Assembly: GCF_000002425.4 (NCBI RefSeq)
Contig: NC_037275.1
Span: forward strand, 10,588,533 to 10,652,532
Source of the DNA: Physcomitrium patens
Lineage: Eukaryota > Streptophyta > Bryopsida > Funariales > Funariaceae
Length of the DNA: 64,000 bases
Direction of reading: 5' to 3'
A program made the position numbers and the translations under genes. This document shows, one piece after another, positions 12,071-62,570 of this stretch. The notes beneath the pieces were generated by a model. It saw nothing but the letters and a program-made list of their open reading frames with translations, made no database searches and was not told the DNA's origin. How positions within the stretch are numbered: position 1 is the stretch's first letter; each line of letters opens with the position of its first letter.

Positions 12071-12321
12071 CGTCAAGGACATATACTAAGAAGTTGTAGA
12101 AGATTGTAGAAAGTTCTAAAGAAGCTTTGTAGTTTGTGGAAGCTGCTTGAGAAGATTCCTAGCTCGTGGAAGCTACTTAAGAAGATTTCTAGCTTGTGGA
12201 AGCTACTTGAGAAGCTTTATAGATTATGGAAGTTGCTTGAGAAGCTTTCTAACTTGTAGTATATATAGGAGCTGAGACTAAAGAGATCCTCAATCTCGAC
12301 AACACACCTCTTGGAGCTCTA
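12071..12321 (+). repeat. 5' LTR of CV2, left part (right part 18865-18966)
   Basis: Aligns with the 3' LTR at 35429-35691 but carries four 30-bp tandem units (about 12138-12257, GGAAGCTNCTTGAGAAG...) where the 3' LTR has one. Its first base is C (CGTCAAGG) where the 3' copy has TGTCAAGG. A TATATATA promoter-like element lies near 12261-12268. CV1 is inserted after CTCTA (12317-12321); the LTR resumes at 18865 and ends near 18966. Confidence 0.8.
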
Positions 12322-12794
12322 TGTTAGGGACATAGTCCTTAGACCTTTCTAGAGACAAGTTTCTAGAACCTTCTAGAAAGAAGTCTCTAGAAACTTCCAG
12401 AAGATTCCTTGAATATTCTCTTAGAATATTCTTCAAAGATTTCCTAAAGATTCTTTGAAGATTCCCTAAAGATTCCCTTAGAAGGCTCTAGAAGATTCTT
12501 AGGAATATTCTAGTAGATTCTAGGAAGTTACTTGAGAAGCTTCCTAGCTCTTGGGTAGTTGCTCGAGAAGCTTCATAGTTTTTGGGAAGCTTCTTGATGC
12601 GCTTCCTTAGAACCATAGGCCAGTAGTATATATAGGAGTCGAGGCTGAAGAGTTCTTCAATCTCGACAACACATCTCTTGGAGTTCTAGCTCACCTTTTT
12701 GGTGTTGTTCTTGTACTCATCTGTTTAATCTAGTTCTGCCACTTCTTCTTGAACTTCTTGTTAGATTTCAAGTCTGTATTTTGTGTCCGTGACA
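12322..12794 (+). repeat. 5' LTR of CV1 (promoter-bearing)
   Basis: TG...CA-bounded LTR. The U3 part is full of GAA/TTC blocks. TTCTAGAACCTTCTAGAA at 12361-12378 is a perfect four-unit heat-shock element, and a second four-unit array occupies 12390-12407. A TATATATA box at about 12629-12636 precedes the likely transcription start. The 3' third (CAACACATCTCTTGGAG onward) is shared with the CV2 LTR. Confidence 0.93.
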
Positions 12795-13314
12795 GTTTGT
12801 CGAGACTACCTTTATCTTAATATCAGAGCTGAATCCTTCTTGTTTGAGAGCGGATTACCCCTCTTCTTGAAGGTATTCTAGCGCTTTAGGGATTGCGGAT
12901 TACCTTCCTCTAAACTGATATTTTCTCAATCACAATATCAGAGCTTAGTTCTTTAAGGCAGAGAGTGGACTACTCCTTTCCTTGGAGATACTTGAGCGTT
13001 CTAAGGGTTGCGGATTACCCTCTCTTGGACTGATATTAATTCCTTCTTTTTGTTTAGCATAGCTAGTAGAAAAGACTGTTAACATCGATTTCAAAGCTTT
13101 GCCTTCTTGATAGAGTGCGGATTACCCCTCTTCTCGAAAGCATTGAGGCATTTTTAGAGGTTGCGGATTACCCTCATCTAAAACTGAAATCGTTTAGTGT
13201 TTTTTTTTTTCCTTTCTCCGAGTAGGTTTTAGTGACAGGTAGTGCTACAATTTTCTCCAAGAGACTTAGCAATTTCTTCTTCTCTCAAAATTTTAATCTA
13301 TCTATTCTCTAAAT
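12795..13314 (+). repeat. CV1 leader with tandem repeats carrying PBS-like motifs
   Basis: TATCAGAGC, the core of an initiator-Met tRNA primer site, occurs at 12821 and again at 12936, each at the start of a roughly 115-bp imperfect repeat. Each repeat contains TGCGGATTACC and ends with an ACTGATATT or similar. A third, more diverged unit lies near 13088-13195. The expected TGG of the primer site is TTA in the first copy. CV2 has the same kind of leader at 18967-19242 with two units. Confidence 0.6.
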
Positions 13315-14379
13315 ATGAAAATAGACTAGGTCATAGACAGTGCATCTCCATAAGTAGACAATAGAGTGGCAACTCTTGCAAATCTTCAAGCTCTTATGAA
13401 TAGTGTACGAAAGGAGATTGCATTTCTTCGCAATCCAAGTAAAGAACCTCAAATTGATCTAGTGACCGAAGAAGCTAGACGCGAAATTTATAGCCTATAA
13501 CAAGAGATTATTCGACTGAGAGAAGCAAGACATGTGTCACATACGACCCCTATAGATACTTCAAGGATTAGTACGAAAGAACCAAAAGCGAGTATGCTAG
13601 ACAAGTTTGATGGAACAAGAGCCAACTTTCGAGGTTTTGTGCAACAAGTACGGCTTTACCTATGCCTATACCCTTCTCGTTATCCGAATGGATTTACCCA
13701 GGTTGCTTTCATAGGTACTCTTCTATCAGGAAATGCTCGCTCTTGGTTTGCTCCACTATTGGAGAAGGATTCTCTAATATTGTACGACCTAGAGGCTTTC
13801 ATAGAGAGACTTACTGCTGCGTTTGGAGATAGCGATCGAGAAAGAGTGGCTGAAAGAAAGATACAAAATCTACAACAAGGATCACGTTCTGCTGCAATCT
13901 ATGCTGCAGAATTTCAACAGCTTACATGTGATCTTGATTGGAATGATAAGGCGTTCATGACACGATTTTGATATGGACTGAGATATGATGTCAAGAACTT
14001 ATTGATCACCATGCCTAAGGCGAATACTTTAGAAGAACTTATATCTCAGGCAATTATTTGTGACAACTGCCTCTTTGAATTACGACAAGAAAGACGATCA
14101 GGCTGGAGAAATGATGGAGCATTTGCTACATTTTCAAAAGGTCCAGAGAATCACTCCACAGATCCTGAACCCATGCAAATTGATGCGGTACGTTTCAAAC
14201 CCCTCACAGCTAAGGAAAGGAAGCGACGGTTTGAACAAAACTTGTGTTTATATTGCGGAGAAGCGGGCCATAAAGCTGTAGATTGTCGAAAGAAACAGAA
14301 GCCTCAAACAACAAGACTCAGGAGTACAAGCATGCAGGAAAACAAGGATGCCCAGCCACAATACGGACCGTGCGGCTAG
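13315..14379 (+). pseudogene. CV1 gag
   Basis: Gag polyprotein of about 354 codons starting at ATG 13315. It makes capsid/nucleocapsid for virus-like particles. The frame is uninterrupted except by TAG 13327, TAA 13351, TAA 13498 and TGA 13969; each differs by one C-to-T change from CAG, CAA, CAA or CGA. Capsid homology covers about 13590-14060 (ASMLDKFDGTRANFRGF, GNARSWFAPLL, DSDRERVAERKI). The C-terminal zinc knuckle is intact: [14 protein letters not shown]. The reading ends at TAG 14377-14379 and overlaps pol, which lies in the -1 frame, by about 106 nt. No classical slippery heptamer was seen in the overlap. Confidence 0.88.
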
Positions 14380-17300
14380 ACATCTCAACATCCAAAATTA
14401 ATCAAGGTCCCTTTCTCTCAGCTCAACCTTCAGATTGTTTTATGGTACCTTTACATCTGGATATTCAAGAACTACAAGTCGATGCTTTATTAGACTCGGG
14501 TGCATCCGCTTGCTTTATAGATGAAGAGTTTGCCAAGCTTCACAATATTTCTCTTGTAAAGAAACTTAAGCCTGTCCATGTAGAAGTCATAGATGGACGA
14601 CCATTGTCTTCGGGCAATGTTATCCATGAAACTAAACCATTGAAGGTACGTCTTGAAAACCATGAGAGCAATATTGTGTTTAATGTTATCAAGACCCCTT
14701 CATGTCCTATCATTTTGGGACTATCTTGGCTTGATAGATATAATCCATTAATAGATTGGAAGTTGCGGAAAGTGACATTTCCAATAAACTCCTTGAAGGT
14801 GGAATCTGCCAAGACAATGTCTAGAAACAAATCCTTGTTTATAGGTGCAAGGGCTTTCATGAAGGAAGCCAAGCAAAATACACCTCTTGTCATCTTCGCA
14901 ACTTCGACTCGAGAAGATGCAACTCCGACTTTGGTTATTCCAAAGCAGTATGAAGAATTCAAAGATGTCTTTGAAAAGAAGAATGCTGATATGCTGCCAG
15001 AGCATCGACCCTATGACTGTGCCATTGAATTGCAAGAAGGAGCACAACCACCTTTTGGACCAATCTATAATTTGTCGCAGACGGAGTTGACTGAGTTGCG
15101 GAAGTACATTGACGAGAATCTAGCCAAGAACTTCATCCGTCATTCGAAGTCGCCAGCTGGGGCACCAATCTTATTTGTGAAGAAGAAAGATGGCTCACTA
15201 TGGATGTGCGTGGACTATCGAGGTCTCAATAAGGTGACAAAAAAGAATCGCTACCCACTGCCTTTGATCTCTGGTCTTCTAGAACAACTTGGGCGTGCAA
15301 GGAACTTTACAAAGATTGACCTAAGGGGAGCTTACAACCTTGTGCGAATCAAAGAAGGAGATGAATGGAAGACAGCTTTTCGAATAAGGTATGGCCATTT
15401 TGAATACAATGTCATGCCATTTGGTCTTACTAATGCTCTAGCGATCTTTCAACACATGATGAATGACATCTTTCGAGAGCATCTAGACGATTTTGTTGTC
15501 ATCTATCTAGATGATATTTTGATATTTTCTAAGAACGAGGAAGAACATGAGAAGCACGTTCGTCTGGTACTCAAAAAACTACGGGAGCGAGGACTCTATG
15601 CCAAATTGGAGAAGTGCTTATTTCACCAAACTGAGATGGAGTTTTTGGGATTCATCGCGATTACAGAAGGATTGAAGATGGATCCAAAGAAGGTGGAAGC
15701 AATCATGTCTTGGGAAGTTCCGAAGACGGTTAGGGACGTACAATGTTTTCTTGGATTTGCTAACTACTATCGGATCTTCATCAAGAATTATTCTCAAGTT
15801 GCTGCCCCCCTCACTCGGTTAACGTGCAAGGACAAGCTCGAATGGGGACCTATCGCAGAAAAAGCATTCCAAGATTTGAAGATGGTATTTACTACAGCTC
15901 CAATCTTGATACATCCGGACTTTACAAAGGCCTTTTATTTGGAGACAGATGCTTCGGATTTTGCTTTGATAGCTGTACTTTCACAGATGGGCGTAGATGA
16001 GAAGCTCCATCCAGTTGCGTTCTATTCTCGAAAATTCTCTGCTGCTGAGATCAACTATGAGATCCACGATAAGGAACTCCTTGCTATAGTAGATTCTTTC
16101 CAAGAGTGGCGCCACTTTCTCGAAGGAACTGCACATCCAGTGACCGTATATACGGATCACAAGAATTTGGAGTATTTTATGTCGGCTCGGGTTTTGAATC
16201 GGCGTCAAGCTCGGTGGAGTATGTCGCTATCCAGGTTCGACTTTGTTATTACTTATTGGCCTGGGAAGCAACAAGGGTTGTCCGATGCATTATCAAGGAG
16301 ATCATATCTTGCGCCAAAGGTTGGAGATGCAGCATTTGATCAACAGTGCACGACATTGTTGAAGCCAGAGAAATTTCGACTCAACGCAGCTATTGTACCA
16401 ATTGATGCTGACTTCCTCGACCAGGTATGGGCCGCAACCATTGAAGATTCTCTAGCCCTTGATATCAAGCAACATGCTAGTGATGATAAATTCAAGATGG
16501 AAGGAGATCTAGTATATTTCGAAGAGCGGTTGTATATCCCAAAAGGGCCAACACGACTCCGAGTTCTTCAATCTCGTCATGACTTTCCAGCTGTGGGACA
16601 TTTTGGATTCAATAAGACCTTGGAACTTATTTCTCGCGATTTCTGGTGGCCTCAAATGTGGAAGGATGTGAAAGAATTTGTTGTATCTTGTGACATTTGT
16701 TCAAGATCCAAAAACCCTCGACATCGGCCTTATGGACTTCTACAGCCATTGCCTATTCCGCGCCGACCATGGTCTTCGGTTTCCATGGACTTTATTACGG
16801 ATCTACCACCATCGAATTCATTTGACAGCATTTTTGTTGTTGTAGATCGGCTTACAAAGATGGCACATTTTATCCCTTGCAAGAAGACATCGTCAAGCGA
16901 AGACACAACAAGACTCTTTCTTGATAATGTGTATCGATATCATAGTCTACCAGATGATATCGTATCAGATTGAGGAACCCAGTTTGTGTCAAAGTTTTGA
17001 AAATCTCTTTTTGAGATATTGAAGGTGGATATCAAGCTTTCTTTAGCATTTCATCCTCAAACGGACGGCCAAACAGAACGAGTGAATCAAGTTTTAGAGC
17101 AATATTTACGTTGCACCATCAACTATCAACAAGATGATTGGGTCGCATATCTACCGCTAGCCGAGTTCGCATATAACAACATCCTTCATGCGTCAACTCA
17201 ACAAACGCCATTCTTTTCCAATTATGGATACCATCCGAAGCTTGACTTATGGAGTTCGTCAACGATTAACAATTCGGCAGTTGAAGGATTGGTGAAGGAG

Positions 17301-17843
17301 CTTTCGCAACTTCAAACTATATTGAAGCTTCAATTGTAAACTGTCCAAGAATCTTACAAGGCATCCGCGGACAAATTTCGGAATCAGGAACCTAAATTCA
17401 CGATTGGAGACAAAGTTTGGCTGCTTCGACGAAATATTAAGACCAAGCGGCCATGTGACAAATTGGACTATCGGAGATTGGGACCATTTGTTATCCAGAA
17501 GCAGATCAATCCTATAGCGTATCGTTTGGAGTTACCAGCTACTATGAAGGTACATCCTGTCTTTCATGTTTCTTTGTTGGAGCCTTATCGAGAATCGTCT
17601 TTTCCTGGAAGAGTACAATGTCCACCACCTAGCATAGAAATAGAGAACCACGAAGAATACGAGGTAGAAAAGGTCCTGGATTCACGGCAAAGACGGGGTA
17701 AATTAGAATACTTTGTGCATTGGAGCGGTTACGATATTAATGAACGAACATGGGAGTCGGCCAAAAATCTCGCGAATGCGCCGCAAAAGGTACAGGAGTT
17801 TCATCAACGATATCCTGAGAAACCCAAGCCGGTTCGACGATAG
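14274..17843 (+). pseudogene. CV1 pol: protease, RT, RNase H, integrase, chromodomain
   Basis: One frame of about 1,190 codons with three stops (TGA 16971, TGA 16998, TAA 17337). Domains in order: aspartic protease with LLDSGAS (near 14490); RT with [17 protein letters not shown] and the catalytic YLDD at 15504-15515; RNase H with DASDFAL and ending in DALSRRS; integrase with H-x-H and CDIC zinc ligands (16560-16700), then MDFITDL, SD-GTQF and GQTERVNQ as the D,D-35-E core; and a C-terminal chromodomain (about 17655-17820) with EYEVEKVLD, HWSGYD and TWES. In chromoviruses the chromodomain is thought to direct integration to methylated-histone chromatin. Lengths match intact family members; only the point stops break it. 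Confidence 0.93.
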
Positions 17844-17988
17844 CTTCTTACTGAAGCTTGCTCATCCAGAAAACAGAAAAGAGGAGAGAGCGCCACCAAA
17901 ATCTATAGTTGATGTAGTCATTCTCTCCAAGATAGCGTAGAACTTTGTTAGTAGCCCAAGTTTGTTCTTATTGTTTTAGCCTCTGAAT

Positions 17989-18330
17989 ATGGATAGCCAA
18001 GATACTACACTTGTCATGTCATCTCAAGCAACTAGCTCACGAAGACGACCGCGAGATGAAGAACCGCCTGCACCACGACGACGTCGAAGGATTCCGAGCA
18101 ACAGATCGCTGGTGATTGTATTTGAGGTCGAGCCTGCCTACAATGGTCAGCCAAAAGGAGTGTTTGCAGGACAATTTCACAATGAAGACACGGAGGTTCA
18201 TGCTTGGTCAGAAGTTGAAGGCGTGGGCCACTACCGTTGGCTTCAAGGACCATTGTATCACTTGCCTCGTGAACAACAATTGGAGTTCATAGCAGAGGTT
18301 ATGCGACAAATCTTCATTTTCTTGCGTTGA
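17989..18330 (+). CDS. Extra ORF of CV1 between pol and the 3' LTR, function unknown
   Basis: An intact ORF of 113 codons, 145 bp after the pol stop, in a different frame. I do not recognise the protein. Residues 1-40 are rich in Ser and Arg with RRRRR (possible nuclear-localisation or RNA-binding patch). The rest is neutral to acidic, with VIVFEVEPAY, KGVFAGQFHNEDT and HYRWLQGPLYHL. There is no signal peptide or membrane helix, so it is not envelope-like. CV2 carries the same ORF at the same place (35017-35370), with collinear frame and 15-20% visible changes, which argues that it was maintained as protein. A pyrimidine-rich acceptor-like TTATTGTTTTAG ends 10 nt before the ATG, so a spliced subgenomic RNA is possible. 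It might be a regulatory or anti-silencing accessory protein; that is speculation. Confidence 0.72.
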   Translation: MDSQDTTLVMSSQATSSRRRPRDEEPPAPRRRRRIPSNRSLVIVFEVEPAYNGQPKGVFAGQFHNEDTEVHAWSEVEGVGHYRWLQGPLYHLPREQQLEFIAEVMRQIFIFLR

Positions 18331-18375
18331 TATTGACTGACGATAACATTGCTTCTCAGAGACCTCGAAGCTAAA

Positions 18376-18386
18376 GGAGGAGGTGA
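18376..18386 (+). promoter_or_regulatory. Polypurine tract of CV1
   Basis: GGAGGAGGTGA lies directly before the 3' LTR start (TGTTAGGG), the expected place of the plus-strand primer for reverse transcription. CV2 has a longer purine run at the same place (about 35410-35428). Confidence 0.8.
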
Positions 18387-18859
18387 TGTTAGGGACATAG
18401 TCCTTAGACCTTTCTAGAGACAAGTTTCTAGAACCTTCTAGAAAGAAGTCTCTAGAAACTTCCAAAAGATTCCTTGAATATTCTCTTAGAATATTCTTTA
18501 AAGATTTCCTAAAGATTCTTTGAAGATTCCCTAAAGATTCCCTTAGAAGGCTCTAGAAGATTCTTAGGAATATTCTAGTAGATTCTAGGAAGTTACTTGA
18601 GAAGCTTCCTAGCTCTTGGATAGTTGTTCGAGAAGCTTCATAGTTCTTGGGAAGCTTCTTGATGCGCTTCCTTAGAACCATAGGCCAGTAGTATATATAG
18701 GAGTCGAGGTTGAAGAGTTCTTCAGTCTCTACAACACATCTCTTGGAGTTCTAGCTCACCTTTCTGGTGTTGTTCTTGTACTCATCTATTTAATCTAGTT
18801 CTGCCACTTCTTCTTGAACTTCTTGTTAGATTTCAAGTCTGTATTTTGTGTCCGTGACA
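18387..18859 (+). repeat. 3' LTR of CV1
   Basis: Partner of 12322-12794, same length (473 bp), about ten substitutions by eye. The four-unit heat-shock element is kept at 18426-18443; the second array has lost one unit (GAA to AAA near 18465). Followed by the target duplication CTCTA at 18860-18864. Confidence 0.93.
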
Positions 18860-18966
18860 CTCTAACTCACCTCTCTAGTATTGTTCTTGTACTCATTTGA
18901 TTAATCTAATTCTTGCCAATTCTTCTTGAGCTTCTTGTTTCTAATCAGTATTCTAAATTTATGATA

Positions 18967-19242
18967 GTTTATCGAAACTCCACTCATCTTTCATATCAGA
19001 GTTAGTTCTTTCTTATTAGAGTGGAGATTATTCCTTTGCTTGAAAGTGCTGATATTTTAGAGGTTACGGATTACCCTCCTCTAAACTGATAATTTTTCTA
19101 TTATAATATTTAGTATTAACTTTCTTGGAGAGAGTGGATTATCCCTCTTCTTGAAGATTTTAAGACATTTTAGAGATTGTGGAATATCCTCCTATAAACC
19201 AATACTACTTTCTTGTAGAGTCATTTCTTTCCTTTTCTTAGA
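18967..19242 (+). repeat. CV2 leader with tandem PBS-like repeats
   Basis: Follows the end of the CV2 5' LTR. ATATCAGAGTTAG near 18992 corresponds to the primer-site motif of CV1, and two imperfect repeats containing GGATTA(T/C)CC follow. It is more decayed than in CV1. Confidence 0.5.
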
Positions 19243-35016: not shown

Positions 35017-35370
35017 ATGGATAGCCAAGAGATAGATACCATACCAGTTATGTCTTCTCAACCGAGTATCTCATGAAGATGACCTTGAGATGAAGAACCG
35101 CCTATACTACGAAGACGATGGAGGATACCTAGTAACAAGTTGCTAGTGATTGTGTTTGAAGTAGAACCTGCCTATGGTGATCTTTCCAAAGGAGTGTTTG
35201 CAGGGCATTTTCACAATGAAGACACAAAAATTCATACCTGGTTAGAAATCAAAGGTATAGAACATTATCATTGGTTACAAAGACCAATGAACTACTTGCT
35301 GTGCAAACAACAATTAGAGTATATTGTAGACACTATGCGACAAATTTTTAACTTCTTATGTTGGTACTGA
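35017..35370 (+). pseudogene. Extra ORF of CV2, decayed homologue of 17989-18330
   Basis: Starts MDSQEIDT and shares long stretches with the CV1 ORF: VIVFEVEPAY, KGVFAGHFHNEDT, EYIVDTMRQIF. The frame has no indel relative to its ends. The only breaks are three TGA codons within the Arg-rich part (about 35074, 35080, 35086), each where CV1 has CGA. It lies 0.13 kb after the pol end and just before the polypurine tract, as in CV1. Confidence 0.75.
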
Positions 35371-35428: not shown

Positions 35429-35691
35429 TGTCAAGGACATACACTAGGAAGTTGTAGAAGATTATAGAAGGTTCTAGAAAAGCTTCATAGATTGTAAAAG
35501 CTGCTTGAAAAGCTTTCTAACTTGTAATATATATAGGAGTTGAGACCAAAGGAATCCTCAGTCTCGACAAGACACCTCTTGGAGCTCTAGCTCACCTCTG
35601 TAGTGTTGTTCTTGTACTCATCTGATTAATCTAGTTCTTTCCAATTCTTCTTGAGCTTCTTGTTTCCAGTCAGTATTCCAAATTTGTGACA
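35429..35691 (+). repeat. 3' LTR of CV2
   Basis: 263 bp, TGTCAAGG to TTTGTGACA, preceded by a long purine tract (GGGGGGAGGGGAGAGGTGA). It contains GAAGGTTCTAGAA at 35467-35479, a perfect three-unit heat-shock element, and a TATATATA box near 35527. Confidence 0.88.
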
Positions 35692-40058: not shown

Positions 40059-42301
40059 TGTTGTGTTGTAACACAATTATATGGTAAAAGATAATAATAT
40101 GGATCTTATTATAGAAGAGCCAAGTTAAAAGAAAAAGTAAAAAAATATGAATAAAAGATAGGAAGATAGTAAAACTTTTAGTAGTAATGCTGCCTTTTTA
40201 GAAAAAATAGCTTCTACTTACTTTGTAGGGCCAAAAATAAGGAAAAATAAGATAAATTAGAAAACTATATGATATAGACATCTTTAGGAAGAAGTTAAGA
40301 GTTAATTCTTGCAAAAATTACTTAGAAAAACTAGATATTGATACCCAGAGAGGGTCGGTTATGAATTAGGGTCGAAATCAGACCCTGAGGTACAAAACCG
40401 AGTCTTGATGACGACTCCAAGGTTCTAAGCAAATCGGAGAGTGAGATTTGATAGCAGATTAAATAAGGTTTCTATGAGCATTGGTTTTTGGCGATTTGGA
40501 GTTTTTATGACTTTGTAAGAGCTTTACAAAGTCAAGATTGTTTTCAGATGACTTGTGGTTTATGAAATAAAATAGGATTGATGTTTTTAGTAATTTCAAG
40601 AGTTTTGTAATAGATCTATGGATGAAATTTTGTGGATCAATGGTCATAGTTATGCTTAATATGTATTGTAAATCTTAGCTCAATCTAACGGTTGAATTGA
40701 GGATTCTTGAGGTTTAAGTAAGTTAAGGTCTCAAAAAGTAGAATTTTAGGTCTGATGAGGGTTTTTAAGATTTCTTGCAATTTACTCGTTGGATTAGAGT
40801 GAATTTTATGTAAGAAAATATTAGACTTGTTTTTCTATGTTCATGTGAATTTTGAGATCAATCGAACTGTGAATTAGAGAGATATTGGCTCTGAGAGATT
40901 GGCATCAAGGTTGGAGAAGGAGGCCAACCAATACCTAAGCATGTTTTTGATGTTATCGTCTATTTTGTAATTTCGATTCTTTTCAAAAATTTTGTCCTTG
41001 TTTTCAACTTAATTTTTAAGAAGTGTGCAAAATTTGAATTAAGATCAACGGTTCATTCATTAGTTATTGAGGTTTAATTCTGTTGTAGAAATTACTAGGA
41101 TTTGGTTAGGATTTGATTTAGAATTAGGATTTGGTTAGGATTTGATTTAGGATTAGGGTTTGATTTAGGATTTAGGATTAGGGTTAGGATTTGGTTAGGA
41201 TTTGATTTAGAATTAGGATTTGATTAGGATTTGGTTCGGATTTGACATAAGATTAGGGTTTGGTTAGGGTTTGATATAAGATTAGGGTTTGGTTTAGGAT
41301 TTAGGATTTGGTTAAGGTTTGATATAGGATTAAGGTTTGGTTAGGATTTGATTTAGGATTAGGGTTTGATTAGGATTTGGTTTAGAATTTAAGATTAAGG
41401 TTAGGATTTGGTTAGGATCTGATTTAGGATTAGGATTTGATTAGGGTTCGGTTAGGGTTTGATATCAGATTAGGCTTTGGTCTAAGATTTAAGATTTGAT
41501 TAAGGTTCGATATAGGGTTAAGGTTTGGTTAGGATTTGACTTACCGGTTTGGACATATGTCGACCGAGTTAGGATTTGATTAGGGTTTGATTTAGGATTA
41601 GGATTTGATTTAGGATTTAGAATTTAGTTAGGATTTGATTTAGGATTAAGGTTTGGTTAGGATTTGATTTAGCATTAAGATTTGGTTAGGATTTGATTTA
41701 GGATTAAGGATTGATTAGGGTTTGATCTAGGATTAAGGTTTGGTTAGGATTTGATTTAGAATTAGGATTTGATTAAGATTTGGTTAGGATTTGATTTAGA
41801 ATTAGGATTTGATTAAGATTTGGTTTAGGGTTTAGGATTAGGGTTAAGATTTGGTTAGGATTTCATTTAAGGTTGAGATTTAGGATTTGGTTAGGATTTG
41901 ATTTAGGATTAGGATTTGGTTTAGGATTTGGTTAGGATTTAAGATTTGGTTAAGATTTGTTCAAGATTTGATTTAGAGTTTAGGATTTATTTGAATTTAT
42001 TTAGGATTTAAGTTTTAGTTAGTTTTTGACCTAAAGTTTGAATGAAGTAAGATTTTAACTAAGATTAAATTAATATTGAATTGAGATGTATTTGAAATAT
42101 GTTTGTAATCATTCTAATATTTCTTTAAATTTTCTTATTCTTTCTTTGGAATTCCTTTGAGGTTTCTTTGAATTTGATTAAAGCTTGTTTAGCATTGTTA
42201 GTGATCTATTAGAATTAGGATTTTGTTGTTGCAATTTCCATTCTACCTTCCACAGTTAGGTGCCCGAAGCATTCTCAAGCAAGACTTCACGTATTACGAC
42301 A
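40059..42301 (+). mobile_element. Solo LTR S4 (FL-type termini) with 4-bp target duplication
   Basis: 2,243 bp from TGTTGTGTTGTAACAC to CACGTATTACGACA, flanked by a perfect 4-bp duplication GCAT (40055-40058 and 42302-42305); the fifth base differs on either side. About 0.93 kb (41095-42020) is a minisatellite of (GGATTTG)(GTTA)(GGATTTGATTTA) type with TTAGGG-like units. No internal genes; a solo LTR. The CV3 integrase reading resumes directly after it. Confidence 0.85.
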
Positions 42302-43884: not shown

Positions 43885-44395
43885 CACTATCTCCTTAGTG
43901 CATAGAATTGATAGAAGCAATATGCAAATAACCACCAGCAACACAAGATCTTTTGAGAAGGTAATTAAGTATTACTTACCAATGCCAATCTTTTACTTGC
44001 TACATCAATCCAAGTTCGTAAGCTAGCACTTCAATGGCTTAGACCTTTTTGCATTTTTGTAGTAATTTTTTATGTTGTATGTTGCCTTGAGCTTCCACCA
44101 TATATTTGGATCCATTTGGTCTTCTATATTTTGTAATTTTAAGAATTTTATATTGAACCAATGTGCTTTTCAGATCGATACCATCGACTACCACCACCAT
44201 AGATTGTAGTTGATGACCAATAAGAGTATGAAGTAGATAATATTTTGGAGCATTGCTACTTTTTTTGTGGCAATGGACTTCCACAATTTTACTATAAAGT
44301 TCTCTGGAAATGATATCCTATCTACAATGCAAAATCCCTCTCTTTATAAGAAAATCATTTGAAAAATACCATTGGGAGCAAAATGAAGACATTCT
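43885..44395 (+). pseudogene. CV3 integrase C-terminus and chromodomain
   Basis: Readable as VLLTNANLLLATSIQVRKLAL and a decayed HPVFHVS-type block (to about 44120). The chromodomain follows near 44190-44330: RYHRLPPP, VVDDQ, EYEVDNILEH, FYYKVLWK. The position and order identify CV3 as a chromovirus. Several stops; the aromatic Trp of the domain is kept in VLWK. Confidence 0.7.
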
Positions 44396-48767: not shown

Positions 48768-51221
48768 CTTCCAAAGAAGAACGTAGATATTCTTCTAAAG
48801 CATCATCTTTATGATTGTTCCATCAATCTTTACAAAATAGCTAAACTACTATTTGGACCAATCTATAGTCTATCACAAAACAAGTTGATTGCACTCAAAG
48901 AGTACATTGATAAGAACTTAGTTAAGAATTTCATATGTCATTCTAAATCTCAAATTGATGCTCCTATCTTATTTGTGAAGAAAAAAGACAAATCTTTGCA
49001 GATGTGTATAGACTATTGAAGATTCAATAAGATCACCATTAACAATAGATATCCTCTACCTTTGATTTTAGGACATTTTGATCAACTAAATTAAACAAAG
49101 ATCTATACAAAAATAGATCTATATGGAGCATATAATTTGGTACGTATTAAAGAAAGAGATAAATGAAAAATTATATTTCAAACCAGATATGGGAATTTTG
49201 AATATAATATCATGTCTTTTCGACTCACAAATGTACCATTTTATTTTTCAATATTTAATGAATAATATATTTTGTGAATTTTTTGTTGATTTTGTCATAT
49301 GTTATTTGAATGATATCTTAATCTACTCTAAGAATAAAGAATAGTATGAAATTCATGTTCATTGTGTGTTACAAAAACTTAGAGATTCATGATTATATGC
49401 CAAGTTAAAAAAGTGTGTATTCCACACTACTCAAGTTGACTTCCTAGGATACATCATTTCCAATGAAGGGCTAATGATGGATCCAAAGAAGGTCCAAACT
49501 ATCATAGATTAGAAGATTTCAAGAATAGTAAGGAATGTGCAATATTTTTTGGACTTTGTCAATTACCATCAAATATTCATCAAGAATTTTTTTTAAGTTG
49601 CAACTCTACTTGCACATTTGACTTGTAAAAATAAACTTGAATGGTATAAAGAAGCCAAAGCATCTTTTGATGCTTTAAAAAAGGAATTTACTTTTGTACC
49701 AATCTTATATTGTATTGACTTTTCTAAGGTATTTTTTACAAAAATAGATATATTAGATTTTGTCTTGAATGTATTATTATCACAAATAGAATCAAATGAT
49801 AAATTCCATCTAATAGCTTTGTATTCCAAAAACATTTCAACAACTAAGATTAATTATTAAATCCATAATAAAGAATTTTTTGCAATTATAGATTCATTTC
49901 AAGAATAGCATTATTATTTAGAAGGCACCTTGAGTCCAATTATCATATATATAAATTACAAGAATCTTGAATATTTTATGTCAACACATATTTTAAATCG
50001 TCGCCAAGCTCATTAAAGCATGTACTTATCAAGATTTGATTTTAAGATTACTTATCAATTCCAAAATCAACAAGGTTTGTCAGACGTCTTTTCTAGATAT
50101 TCTTATCTTCTATCAAAAGAAGAATATGTATCTTTTAATCAACAAAGAATAATTCTCTTGAAGCAAAAAAAATTTCACCTTCAAGCAACAAAATCAACAT
50201 TAACTATTGATTCAACATTTGTCAAGAAAATTCAATCAAGTATGTCCTCTGATCTTCTTATCTATGATATCAAGAATAATTCTTTTAAGTCTCATGATAC
50301 TTCCAAGTTTGAGTTCAATAACAACCTACTCTATTTTGAGGGATGATTATACATTCCAAAAGATGGGGCACAATTATATTTTCTTCAAACTTGTCATGAC
50401 TTTCCAATAGTCGATATTTTTTATACAGTAAGATTTTGGAGCTAATATTAAGAGATTTTTAGTGGCTTCAAATATAAAAGGCAGTTAAAAACTTTCTACA
50501 ATCATGTGATATTTGTTCAAGATCTTAAATCCCTTGCTATCGACCATATGGACTTCTTGAGCCATAACCTATTCTAAAACAACCATGGTCTTTCATTTCT
50601 ATGGATTTTATCACAAATCTTCCAATCTCAAGTTCATATGATTCTATACTAAAGATAGTAGATCATTTTATTAAGATGGCATATTTTGTATCATGTACAA
50701 AATCTATTACAGATGAAGAAATGACTAAGTTTTTTTTTAACAACATGTGTTCCTATCACAAATTGCCTAAAGATATTATATCAGATAAAAAGACTCAATT
50801 TACATCAAGATTTTGGAGAACCCTTTTTAAGATTTTAAAAGTGGATATAAAGCTCTCTTTGGCTTTTCACCTTCAAATTGATGGGTAAGCAGAATAGATG
50901 AATTAAGTTTTGGAACAGTACTTGAGGTGTACCATTAACTATCATCAAGATAATTGGCCAACTCTTTTACTATTTGCAAAGTTTATAAATAATATTTTAG
51001 TACATTCTTCCACTCAACAAACACCTTTCTTTGTCAACTATAGTTATCACCTACAACTTGATACTTTTGACTTTTCAAAAGTTAATAATCCTACCACAAA
51101 AGATTTGGCAAATCATTTTTTAAAGTTATATGCAACAATGAAGGCACAACTAAAGGATGCTCAAGAACAACAAAAAATTTATACACATGCTTATTGCAAG
51201 GAACAACCACAATTTAACATA
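48768..51221 (+). pseudogene. CV4 pol: RT, RNase H, integrase (truncated)
   Basis: RT starts KKKNVDIL (48775) and includes FVKKKDKSLQMCIDY and, near 49290-49320, VICYLNDILIYSK, where the catalytic YLDD is YLND. RNase H: DILDFVLNVLLSQ and SRFDFKITYQFQNQQGLSDVFSR. Integrase: MDFITNLPISSSYDS, a decayed SD-K-TQFTSRFWRTLF, and LAFHLQIDG followed by a stop. [15 protein letters not shown] and the FVNYSYHLQLD block follow. Ends abruptly at about 51221. About twenty stops or shifts. Confidence 0.85.
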
Positions 51222-51766: not shown

Positions 51767-52945
51767 TGTTGTGTTGTAACACGAATAAACAGTGAAAATA
51801 AAAAGAAAGGGGAATTTTATTAATATTCAGTTACCTCGAATATTGGGAGCATCGACCAACTCCAGTACAAATACTGAGTGGTCAGGTTCAGTCACTCCGT
51901 TACAGTCAACTGGGGCATACTGAAATGCTCCATTCGATTCCAATAACGGGAGTCAGCAGGAAGAGAAGGACCAATTCACACGACGGGTTCGAGGAGCCAA
52001 TTGGATCCAATTTCGATAATCCAATCCGGGTCCTCTTATCCAATATGAGACCTGAATTGGCCGGTCAATCCAATGCAGTCTAATTACGGAGAATCCAGGT
52101 CTTACTACGGGTCTTAGCCAATCTGACGCGAGGACCAATTTGACCCAATTACGGGAACATCCAGGTTACTACGGGCATCTTTCCCAATATAGGACCTGAA
52201 TTGGTCGGGCGACTCAATGTGGTCCTGATTACGGGGTTCGATTCTGTTTCAGGCTGTCCTGTTCGCTGTGCCGTTTCAGGGAACGTTGTTTTCAGTAAAT
52301 GGATTTCTTAAAAGTAAAAACGGAGGAGAAAGCTCTGATGGCGAGAGCCAATTTTGGATCCAAGCTTGACGGCGAGAGCCAATTTCGGATCCAAGCTTGA
52401 GGTGGGAGCCAATTTCGGATCTAAGACGGAAGATTGAAGAAATTCAGAGGATAAGGTTAGGGGGGATATAGTTTTGAAAGGGGAGGGTTTTTTTGGGGGA
52501 ATCGGGGGGGAGCTAGTTTTCAAGCTTTTGCAAGGTTACCAGTTCGGTTTTCATTGGAGGGTTTTGAAGATCAAGGGAATTAGAGAGAGGAGCTTCATGC
52601 TTCGGGTCGGGGAAGGAAAGACATAGAATTTGGATTTTTCTTCTTCGTAGAGTTTTGAGAAGACTGAGGCAATCGCTGCTGAAGTCAGTGTTGTAATGGT
52701 GAATTGGGATTTTTAAATGAAGTGGGTTTGAATACTCTTGACTGTTTTGTAAAATCGAGTTACGTCTGTGATTGAAGGATTAAAAGGGTGTCTATAGGAT
52801 TGAGTATGCGGAGTGAATGAAATTTATTAGGTTAATCTAATAGGACAGTCAGTGGATACAAGATCGTAAGTACAAAGGGGTATTGAAGATTAACAGTTTG
52901 GGTTGTTCGGGGTTCTTTGTAACGTCTAGAGACCTACCGGCTGGG

Positions 52946-52978
<33 letters not shown>

Positions 52979-53150
52979 CTTCGACAAGCAGTCGAAGAGC
53001 ATCCGTATAGATTTACGGTACATTGTTGCAGTCGTTTATATTCCAGCAGTCAAAAACTGATAGACTGCTTGACTATCGGCGAATCTCCATACTACCTTCT
53101 ACAGCCAGACGCCCGGCGCGTTCTCGAGCAGGAAAGCACGTAATACGACA
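51767..53150 (+). repeat. 5' LTR of FL1
   Basis: Starts TGTTGTGTTGTAACACG (with the palindrome GTGTTGTAACAC) and ends CACGTAATACGACA. It contains a pure run of 31 A at 52946-52976, 174 bp before its end, also 31 A in the 3' LTR. Around 51920-51965 a shortened remnant of the FL2 LTR zinc-knuckle frame is recognisable (GGGGCATACT...AATGCTCCATTC). Confidence 0.95.
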
Positions 53151-59132: not shown

Positions 59133-60312
59133 TGTCGTGTTGTAACACGAGTATACAGTGAAAATAAAAAGAAAGGGGAATTTTATTAATATTCAGTTAC
59201 CTCGAATATTGGGAGCATCGACCAACTCCAGTGCAAATACTGAGTGGTCAGGTTCAGTCACTCCGTTACAGTCAGCCGGGGCATACTGAAATGCTCCATT
59301 CGATTCCAATAACGGGAGTCAGTAGGAAGAGAAGGACCAATTCACACGACGGGTTCGAGGAGTCAATTGGATCCAATTTCGATAATCCAATCTGGGTCCT
59401 CTTATCCAATATGAGACCTGAATTGGCCGGTCAATCCAATGCAGTCTAATTACGGAGAATCCAGGTCTTACTACGGGTCTTAGCCAATCTGACGCGAGGA
59501 CCAATTTGACCCAATTACGGGAACATCCAGGTTACTAAGGGCATCTTTCCCAATATAGGACCTGAATTGGTCGGGCGACTCAATGTGGTCCTGATTACGG
59601 GGTTCGATTCTGTTTCAGGCTGTCCTGTTCTCTGTCCCGTTTCAGGGAACGTTGTTTTCGGTAAATGGATTTCTTAAAGGTAAAAACGGAGGAGAAAGCT
59701 CTGATGACGAGAGCCAATTTTGGATCTAAGCTTGACGGCAAGAGCCAATTTCGGATCCAAGCTTGAGGTGGGAGCCAATTCGGGATCTAAGACGGAAGAT
59801 TGAAGAAATTCAGAGGATAAGGTTAGGGGGGATATAGTTTTGAAAGGGGAGGGTTTTTTTTGGGGAATCGGGGGGGAGCTAGTTTTCAAGCTTTTGCAAG
59901 GTTACCAGTTTGGTTTTCATTGGAGGGTTTTGAAGATCAAGGGAATTAGAGAGAGGAGCTTCATGCTTCGGGTCGGGGAAGGAAAGACATAGAATTTGGA
60001 TTTTTCTTCTTCGTAGAGTTTTGGGAAGACTGAGGCAATCGCTGCTGAAGTCAGTGTTGTAATGGTGAATTGGGATTTTTAAATGAAGTGGGTTTGAATA
60101 CTCTTGATTGTTTTGTAAAATCGAGTTACGTCTGTGATTGAAGGATTAAAAGGGTGTCTATAGGATTGAGTATGCGGAGTGAATGAAATTTATTAGGTTA
60201 ATCTAATAGGACAGTCAGTGGATACAAGATCGTAAGTACAAAGGGGTATTGAAGATTAACAGTTTGGGTTGTTCGGGGTTCTTTGTAACGTCTAGAGACC
60301 TACCGGCTGGGG

Positions 60313-60345
<33 letters not shown>

Positions 60346-60517
60346 CTTCGACAAGCAGTCGAAGAGCATCCGTATAGATTTACGGTACATTGTTGCAGTC
60401 GTTTATATTCCAGCAGTCAAAAACTGATAGACTGCTTGACTATCGGTGAATCTCCATACTACCTTCTACAGCCAGACGCCCGGCGCGTTCTCGAGCAGGA
60501 AAGCACGTAATACGACA
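59133..60517 (+). repeat. 3' LTR of FL1
   Basis: Partner of 51767-53150; starts TGTCGTGTTGTAACACG and ends TACGACA, so its first six bases are the exact inverted repeat of its last six. The 31-A run is at 60313-60343. Followed by CCGT at 60518-60521. Confidence 0.95.
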
Positions 60518-60521
60518 CCGT

Positions 60522-61100
60522 GACATTACCCCCTTTCTAGGGACAAGTTCCACGAAGAGCGATGATTACATGTAGATGAAGAGCGATGATTACAAGATGT
60601 GCCAAAATATATTTGTCACGTACTCTGATCTTTATTTCTTTCAAAGGTAGTTGATAGGTCCCTTCAACCATCAATAATGTTCCATACTAAGGCAAGAAGA
60701 CTACTCTAATATTTGATTATTATTGAGGCCTTCAAAACTTTTTTTAAAGAAAACATTGGTAATACCATCATGAGTAGTTCTTATCTCCAAAAGTATCACT
60801 AAACACTAGGAGTCCTTTCTAAGGTTGTGGTATCAAATGCATTATATCTTGCCATCTATTCAAGGAAGAATATGTCATTCTTGAAGGTCTTCATCTCAAT
60901 TTCATCATCTTGAAGGTTGTAATAATTGCAATATTTCATTTGATAGCTCAGCAAATAATAGCTCTTGAATTGAATCTGATGGTTGTTGATTCTCCACCTC
61001 CTAAGCACTAAAAAATTCAAAGAAATAATGATATAAGATAGAATAAAATCTCCATTGGACTTTCTTTGCTTTATAGCAAAGAATTTCTAGACTCTTCATC
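60522..61100 (-). other. CV5 stretch between chromodomain and LTR, possible decayed extra ORF
   Basis: On the minus strand after the chromodomain, several open pieces follow with few stops: DDEIEMKTFKNDIFFLE, then in another frame MVEGTYQLPLKEIKIRV and DKYILAHLVIIALH, ending close to the polypurine tract. By eye it does not match the extra ORF of CV1/CV2. A 17-bp unit GAAGAGCGATGATTACA is duplicated (60554-60571 and 60580-60595). I cannot say whether this was a gene. Confidence 0.3.
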
Positions 61101-62570
61101 TTGATTTTGATAGATGTCATTGATAAAAAGCTTTAATTTTGGCTGATGCATTTGCTAGATTCTTGGATGGCTCCCATGTGCATTCATTAATGTCATGTCT
61201 ATGCCAATATACTATATATTCAAACCTATTTCAGCATCACTTTCAATCTATGTCTTCTTCCACCTTAAATTCTTCATTATTGTCCATTTCTATAAGAGGT
61301 GGTGGTATTTGTCTCATTCCTTGTATATCCATTATCTTGTATGGCTCAAATAAAGATATATGGAATATATGATGGATTTTTATAGACTTTGGTACATATA
61401 ATTAATAAGCAACTCAATTGATTTATTCATAAATAGAAAATGGTCTAAGCCTATGATAATCTAGCTTGTCACAAGGATGAATAGTTTTAATATTACAACG
61501 AAATAACCATACCTTATCTTCGACATAGAATTGAAGTTGTTCCTTGCAATAGACATCTGCATTGGCTTTTTGTCATTCTTGAGCTTCTTTTAATTGTGCC
61601 TTCATTGTTACATATAGCTTTGATAATCAATTTGCCACATCTTCTATCGCAAGATTATCAACTTTTGAAAAGTCAAAAGTGTCAAATTATGGATGATAAC
61701 TGTAATTAACAAAGAAAGGTGTTTGTTGAGTAGAAGAATATACCAAATTATTATAAGCAAACTCTGCCAATGACAAAAGAGTTGTCCAATCATCTTGTTG
61801 ATAGTTAATGGTATACTTCAAACACTACTCTAAAACTTGATTTACCCGTTCTGTTTATCCATTAGTTTGAGGATGAAAAGTTGAAGATAGTTTTATATCC
61901 CCCTTTAATATCTTGAAAAGAGTTCTCCAAAATCTCAATAAAAATTGTATTCCTTTGTCTGATATAATATCCCTTAGTAATCTATGATAGCAATAAATAT
62001 TATTAAGAAAGAGTTTAACTATTCTTTCACTTGTGATAGATTTTTTATATAGTACAAAATATGTCATCTTGGTGAAACAATCTACAATCACAAAAATGGA
62101 ATCATATGAACTTGAAATTGGAAGATCCGTGATAAAATCCATAGACATAAAAGACCATGATTCTTCTGGTATAGATAATAGTTGGAGAAGTCCATAAGGT
62201 CGATGACAAGGAGATTTTCATCTTGAACAAACATCACTTGTTTGTACAAATTCTTTAACAGCCTCCCACATTTGAAGCCACTAAAAATCTCTAAATATAA
62301 GCTCCAAAGTCTTATTATATCCAAAATGTCTTGCTGTAGGGAAATTCTGATGAGCTTCAAGAGCACATAATTGTAATTCTTTTTTGTACAATATAGAACA
62401 AATAAGTGTCTTTCAAAATAGAGTAGGTTCTCCTTAAACTCAAATTTGGAAGTATCTTGAGACTTAGAGGAATTATTTTTAATATCATGAACAAGAAGAT
62501 CTGACGACATACTTGCTTGGATCTGCTTGAAAAAAGTCAAACCAACAGTTAATGTTGATTTCATTGCTTA
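61101..62570 (-). pseudogene. CV5 chromodomain and integrase
   Basis: Minus-strand reading, from right to left. KSTLTVGLTFFKQIQASMSSDLLVHDIKNNS (62480-62564) is the connection region. The integrase zinc part is decayed. The core has MDFITDLPISSSYDS (62100-62145), SDKGIQFLLRFWRTLF and FHPQTNG (61855-61960). Then the C-terminal domain, EEFKVEEDID and YWHRHDINECTWEPSKNLANA (chromodomain, about 61110-61290). Stops and shifts are frequent. It aligns closely with CV4 pol and shows that the CV4 family had a chromodomain. Confidence 0.8.

Follow-up and report, generated by a model that had tools for sequence, protein, structure and literature searches.

A short codon-constrained open reading frame between pol and the 3' LTR of moss chromoviruses, best read as a lineage-specific accessory gene

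The window, that is the whole stretch of 64,000 nucleotides of Physcomitrium patens DNA that was analysed, contains a chromovirus, CV1, flanked by two copies of the sequence CTCTA at 12317-12321 and 18860-18864. The features of this element are the following.

12322-18859, + strand: chromovirus CV1, with an LTR pair and the 5-bp target duplication CTCTA
12322-12794, + strand: 5' LTR, 473 bp
about 12626, + strand: TATA-like GTATATATA in the 5' LTR, read from the sequence
12658-13314, + strand: leader free of ATG, 657 nt from the inferred RNA start; the next ATG, at 13315, opens gag
12795-12807, + strand: candidate self-primer binding site, exact reverse complement TCTCGACAA
13315-14379, + strand: gag with capsid domain and CCHC knuckle, containing stops (Retrotrans_gag 1.4e-11 on 13534-13968)
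14283-17843, + strand: pol with protease, RT, RNase H, integrase and chromodomain (Pfam matches including RVT_1 1.5e-35 and Chromo 3e-17)
17957-17979, + strand: candidate splice acceptor, a run rich in T that closes with AG
17989-18330, + strand: ORF3, ATG to TGA, 113 codons
18373-18383, + strand: polypurine tract 5' of the 3' LTR, read from the sequence
18387-18859, + strand: 3' LTR, 473 bp

The two LTRs are 97.9% identical, with 10 mismatches in 474 aligned bases. The RNA would start near 12658, judging from the TATA-like motif and the self-primer; the candidate self-priming feature consists of nine exactly complementary nucleotides, 12797-12805 pairing with LTR positions 12661-12669, where the available part of a plant survey gives a threshold of 10 (PMC6317226). 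The CCHC knuckle of gag was read from the ORF at 14002-14379, and the gag stops are visible in the translation. Pol is split into three ORFs (14283-16973, 17019-17339 and 17463-17843), in which the Pfam matches follow the order RVT_1, RT_RNaseH, Integrase_H2C2, SH3_Tf2-1 and Chromo, which is a Ty3-order pol with the chromodomain after the integrase. Because gag carries stops and pol is broken into three ORFs, this copy is dead; ORF3 is nevertheless open. In the CV1 chromodomain, the residues Y, W and Y, candidates for the aromatic-cage (group I) positions, stand within EYEVE and VHWSGY of the translation. CV1 seems to have inserted within the 5' LTR of another element, CV2; its upstream flank 12206-12321 matches 35474-35589 and its downstream flank 18860-18964 matches 35585-35689.

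ORF3 begins 145 bp after the pol stop (the end of the chromodomain ORF, 17843) in a different frame, and its own stop is followed by the polypurine tract after 42 bp. The coordinates of this 113-codon frame between pol and the 3' LTR, as given in a preliminary description of the locus, were confirmed, and so was the acceptor-like TTATTGTTTTAG before the ATG, which ends at 17979 with 9 nt intervening. The same description placed a homologue at the equivalent position in CV2; the position holds, with the homologue at 35017-35358, but the CV2 copy is broken by three in-frame stops. A third homologue, absent from that description, was found in the element CV4.

35017-35370, + strand: ORF3 of CV2, with three in-frame stops (tblastn 8e-44, 64% protein identity)
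60593-60997, - strand: ORF3 remnant of CV4 (lineage B, see below), with altered start codon and several stops
61120-61464, - strand: chromodomain end of CV4 pol (tblastn 1.8e-33, 49%)

The CV4 remnant is decayed and distant, with 57-59% identity to the lineage-B proteins P0230 and P0224 (best E 3e-45) versus 24% to CV1 ORF3 (E 1e-4), and occupies the same place behind the chromodomain. ORF3 thus follows three of the four chromodomain matches in the window (CV1, CV2 and CV4). Within these 64 kb it was not detected behind the weak fourth match at 44023-44250, and CV3 (pol 48774-50786, + strand) showed neither a chromodomain match nor a detectable ORF3 behind pol. Two other repeats were seen in the window. 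Direct repeats of about 1.38 kb, 98.2% identical (51767-53150 and 59133-60517), are probably the LTRs of another element between CV3 (+) and CV4 (-), and 41095-42016 is an imperfect, GGATTA-rich repeat field with many repeats at 29-nt spacing.

The codon constraint on ORF3 was assessed by comparison of CV1 with CV2. Over 111 codons, with three stop-bearing codons set aside, dN was 0.184 and dS 1.138, giving a dN/dS of 0.161 (bootstrap 0.07-0.31). This ratio comes from one comparison of two dead copies, and dS (1.14) is close to saturation. For the same pair, three stretches of pol yielded 0.214, 0.219 and 0.257, and the integrase-end/chromodomain ORF 0.139. In its two wrong frames ORF3 gave 0.69 and 0.93, and the 145-bp spacer between pol and ORF3 gave 0.79-1.11 in the three frames. 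For ORF3, the changes between the copies number 23/19/43 at codon positions 1/2/3, with p 0.0004; for the spacer they number 12/15/14, with p 0.72. Since both copies are dead, changes acquired after insertion raise the ratio, and constraint during the active life of the elements was if anything stronger. The earlier proposal of an extra chromovirus gene under codon constraint is thereby supported, at a pol-like dN/dS of 0.16 for this pair, and ORF3 is almost certainly a selected gene of these elements. It is also, as proposed, not a read-through product of pol, being out of frame and without profile similarity to pol or the chromodomain. Applying hhalign with one-sequence templates, ORF3 obtained probabilities of 0.17% against pol 14283-16970, 0.14% against the integrase-end/chromodomain ORF, and 0.06% and 0.10% against the gag of the same element, a weak test with such templates. 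A duplicated chromodomain or pol tail was considered as the origin of ORF3; the absence of sequence similarity to either in these comparisons speaks against it.

Relatives of ORF3 were sought among 5.8 billion proteins. The CV1 query returned 103 matches from 130 candidates; organism names are attached to 14 of them, 11 Physcomitrium patens and three Ceratodon purpureus. Identity to the CV1 protein reaches 91-95% for the top three that carry the name P. patens, by which the host is most likely this species or one closely related to it. A distant match with 42% identity, P0102, was used as a second query and returned 1333 matches from 1346 candidates; among the matches listed, the best 120 of the 1333, two organism names occur, Sphagnum tenellum and S. 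troendelagicum, and these two named members are the basis for calling lineage C Sphagnum-type. The query P0101 led to a second P. patens lineage, B, with 23 matches from 31 candidates, 12 of them named P. patens. One lineage-B ORF3 protein, P0237, is encoded on a 549-base contig filed under Kitasatospora herbaricolor, which is most likely moss contamination. For the counts, lineage A comprises P0001-P0101, lineage B P0223-P0243 and lineage C P0102 together with P0104-P0222, with P0103 omitted; P0096 and P0101, apparently chimeric gene models with B-type N-termini, are counted in lineage A.

Identity between the three lineages is about 32-44%. A tree of 63 of the 243 proteins and the window ORF, in which the bootstrap had not settled, separates A, B and C with strong support, although the branches leading to B and C are long and were flagged for it. 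Near-invariant positions in the alignment are DE in the tail, R.LVI, G, WS, G.GHY.WL, P, L and, in the C-terminal helix, I..FL. Among the matches listed, many proteins of all three lineages have their own start methionine at a similar place; some of lineage C lack one there, and some of lineages A and C begin further upstream, those of lineage A (e.g. P0044, P0045 and P0051) with MSNLRV or MSNWKV. The Ceratodon proteins P0005, P0008 and P0014 are 84-86% identical to the CV1 protein and fall within the part of lineage A that holds P. patens, a placement that could reflect either horizontal transfer or strong constraint. Judged from these sequences, ORF3 relatives are present in three deep lineages, and the moss genera named among them are Physcomitrium, Ceratodon and Sphagnum; the placement behind a chromodomain is seen in DNA of lineages A and B, the Sphagnum-type members being known as proteins only.

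The CV1 protein has a mass of 13.3 kDa and a pI of 6.9 (core 5.4). Median lengths across the three lineages are 115-140 residues, compared with 113 in CV1, and the median pI of 5.2-5.8 indicates that the whole protein is not basic. The highest 19-residue Kyte-Doolittle mean of the CV1 protein is 0.49, so that no membrane stretch is present, in agreement with the earlier view. The same description had argued for a nuclear protein from the Arg-rich N-terminus, which does not hold in general. Using a loose pattern, an Arg cluster was found in 60 of 67 proteins of lineage A, 17 of 21 of lineage B and none of 116 of lineage C, after dropping those with fewer than 25 residues before the core or with no core (34 of 101, 0 of 21 and 4 of 120, respectively) and with lineage C represented by the 120 listed of 1333 matches. 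A nuclear role argued from this patch is therefore lineage-limited at best. Two structure models of ORF3 show strands followed by a C-terminal helix at poor confidence (mean pLDDT 57 and 50.6). The protein has a charged, probably flexible N-terminus and a conserved C-terminal domain (residues about 39-113), compact and of strand-plus-helix type as far as these models can be followed. No credible match to ORF3 was obtained in Pfam, PHROG or PDB, and no significant fold match in PDB or, for the second model, in a library of viral models. A match to the PUR-alpha nucleic-acid-binding repeat fold was non-significant, tied with unrelated folds and left the helix uncovered, and no PUR entry occurred among the 50 matches listed for the first model. 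ORF3 represents a protein family for which the searched libraries contain no counterpart.

The leader lacks any ATG where 6.0 are expected, and none of 1000 dinucleotide shuffles was as low; the gag ATG is accordingly the first in the full RNA. If the leader were joined to the AG at 17979, the ORF3 ATG would become the first. By our own simple pyrimidine/T score this AG (17978-17979) ranks seventh among the 407 AGs of the CV1 internal region, six scoring better, and the ORF3 ATG has A at -3 and G at +4. The AG/GT sites at 12871 and 13237, candidate donors, look weak on visual inspection. In CV4 a T-rich stretch and a TAG lie just 5' of the ORF3 start, and in CV2 a T-rich stretch lies near the start with no AG there. 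A spliced ORF3 mRNA is plausible from these signals. By analogy, an internal promoter is possible, as for the Grande gene, to which one is ascribed in the title of a paper in the reference list of PMC11963269.

The leaders of CV1 (12835-13182) and CV2 (about 19005-19199) contain repeated units around GCGGATTACC. Five b-type units, picked by eye, share an eight-pair hairpin in which 90% of cells are paired, and three pairs carry compensating changes, a number reached by 5 of 500 shuffles; folding of the whole CV1 and CV2 leaders was not significant. The repeats are possibly a packaging or regulatory RNA element.

A sense ORF between pol and the 3' LTR, as in the class aORF-3S, is found in the three window copies and has many-member clusters of relatives. 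According to the available text of PMC7264820, the additional ORFs of Athila, SIRE and Bagy2 (aORF-3S / eORF-3'F) share with ORF3 the position, the orientation and a possible spliced message; ORF3 differs in being located in a chromovirus, in being much shorter and in lacking a membrane stretch. In Grande/Retand elements, too, the 3' internal region carries a conserved accessory gene, with a nuclear product in Grande, but there the gene is antisense whereas ORF3 is sense, and Retand is a non-chromovirus lineage (PMC11963269, available part). CV1 itself would belong to the Tcn1 clade, judging from its moss host and published surveys. PpatensLTR1 and SM-Tcn1, moss and lycophyte elements of this clade, share the chromodomain with CV1, and the moss PpatensLTR elements group with Tcn1 (PMC2864245, in the part available). 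The lengths given there for SM-Tcn1 (5704 bp, LTRs 440, gag 969, pol 3714) leave 141 bp by our subtraction, too little for an ORF3 of 113 codons in addition to gag and pol; in the same paper, the legend to a figure showing fungal elements and SM-Tcn1 uses 'add. ORF' for an ORF whose function is unknown. SM1-Galahad of Selaginella has two short ORFs after pol, one of 113 aa, but that one contains the chromodomain, whereas ORF3 is separate and downstream of it (PMC3350952, available part). The available main text of the additional-ORF review PMC7264820 mentions neither moss nor chromoviruses, and the accessible portion of PMC9033089 holds nothing on ORF3. The largest plant survey, as far as its available part goes, applied a 250-codon minimum, by which ORF3 would be missed. 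It reports strong heterogeneity among the eORFs; most descriptions of extra ORFs in plant retrotransposons call them heterogeneous and leave their function in doubt (PMC6317226). No description of ORF3 was found in the titles and abstract openings searched, a set outside of which subscription papers fall, and an earlier mention is possible. ORF3 is an additional ORF of a known class, in a novel form.

ORF3 is best read as a lineage-specific accessory gene carried by Tcn1-like chromoviruses of mosses, and on balance we favour an intracellular accessory factor acting on the element's own nucleic acid. Translation would begin at the ORF3 ATG on a subgenomic mRNA; the simplest route would be splicing of the ATG-free leader to the acceptor at 17979, which would put this ATG first. 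The product of about 13-16 kDa, a charged and probably flexible tail with a compact strand-plus-helix domain, would act inside the cell on the RNA, the cDNA or the integration complex of the element, as an accessory replication or regulatory factor and neither as an envelope nor as an enzyme. ORF3 probably helps the elements to copy themselves.

Other functions have to be weighed against this accessory factor. A structural or replication cofactor in the virus-like particle, such as a nucleocapsid- or packaging-like helper, is a tentative possibility in view of the pol-like constraint, the place in the element and the basic patch in lineages A and B, but the protein as a whole is not basic and resembles the element's gag in neither comparison, the latter being a weak test. 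It is unlikely that ORF3 antagonizes host defence by acting on host chromatin or the small-RNA machinery so that a heterochromatin-dwelling element stays transcribable: the conservation of ORF3 and the lack of a match to any enzyme family would fit, but its constraint is pol-like with no sign of arms-race fast evolution. To our knowledge the known silencing suppressors share no common sequence, and the missing match therefore says little on this point. Anti-silencing would also agree with transcription of the high-copy chromodomain family RLG1 in moss protonema (PMC7466625, available part). An improbable idea, by analogy to Rev and its response element, is that ORF3 and the leader hairpins form a pair of trans-factor and target, in which ORF3 made from a spliced message would bind the GCGGATTACC-loop hairpins in unspliced RNA and decide on splicing, export, translation or packaging; if true, a plant chromovirus would have an expression programme of two phases, resembling that of retroviruses.

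Gene transduction by retrotransposons does occur (PMC7264820, available text), but capture of a host gene that has since travelled as a passenger is very improbable given the pol-like constraint, the same protein in two chromovirus lineages and the lack of a host-gene name on any of the matches listed. An envelope-like ORF as in Athila, SIRE or Bagy2 would fit the position, the orientation and the possible splicing, but is hardly credible for so short a protein, with no hydrophobic membrane stretch in the CV1 product. Shortness and the degenerate state of CV1 would suit a chance ORF or a broken pol tail, an origin that the dN/dS, the homologues in several mosses, the frame and the absence of profile similarity to chromodomain, pol or gag leave with next to no probability.

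ORF3 shows that a conserved gene can escape notice when ORFs below 250 codons are excluded. Its small size, its pol-like constraint and its relatives in Physcomitrium, Ceratodon and Sphagnum make the function of extra ORFs directly testable. According to the available part of PMC7466625, no P. patens element is more abundant than RLG1, which carries a chromodomain and is transcribed and polymorphic. A model moss with transcribed chromoviruses is a setting in which it can be tested whether such extra genes act.
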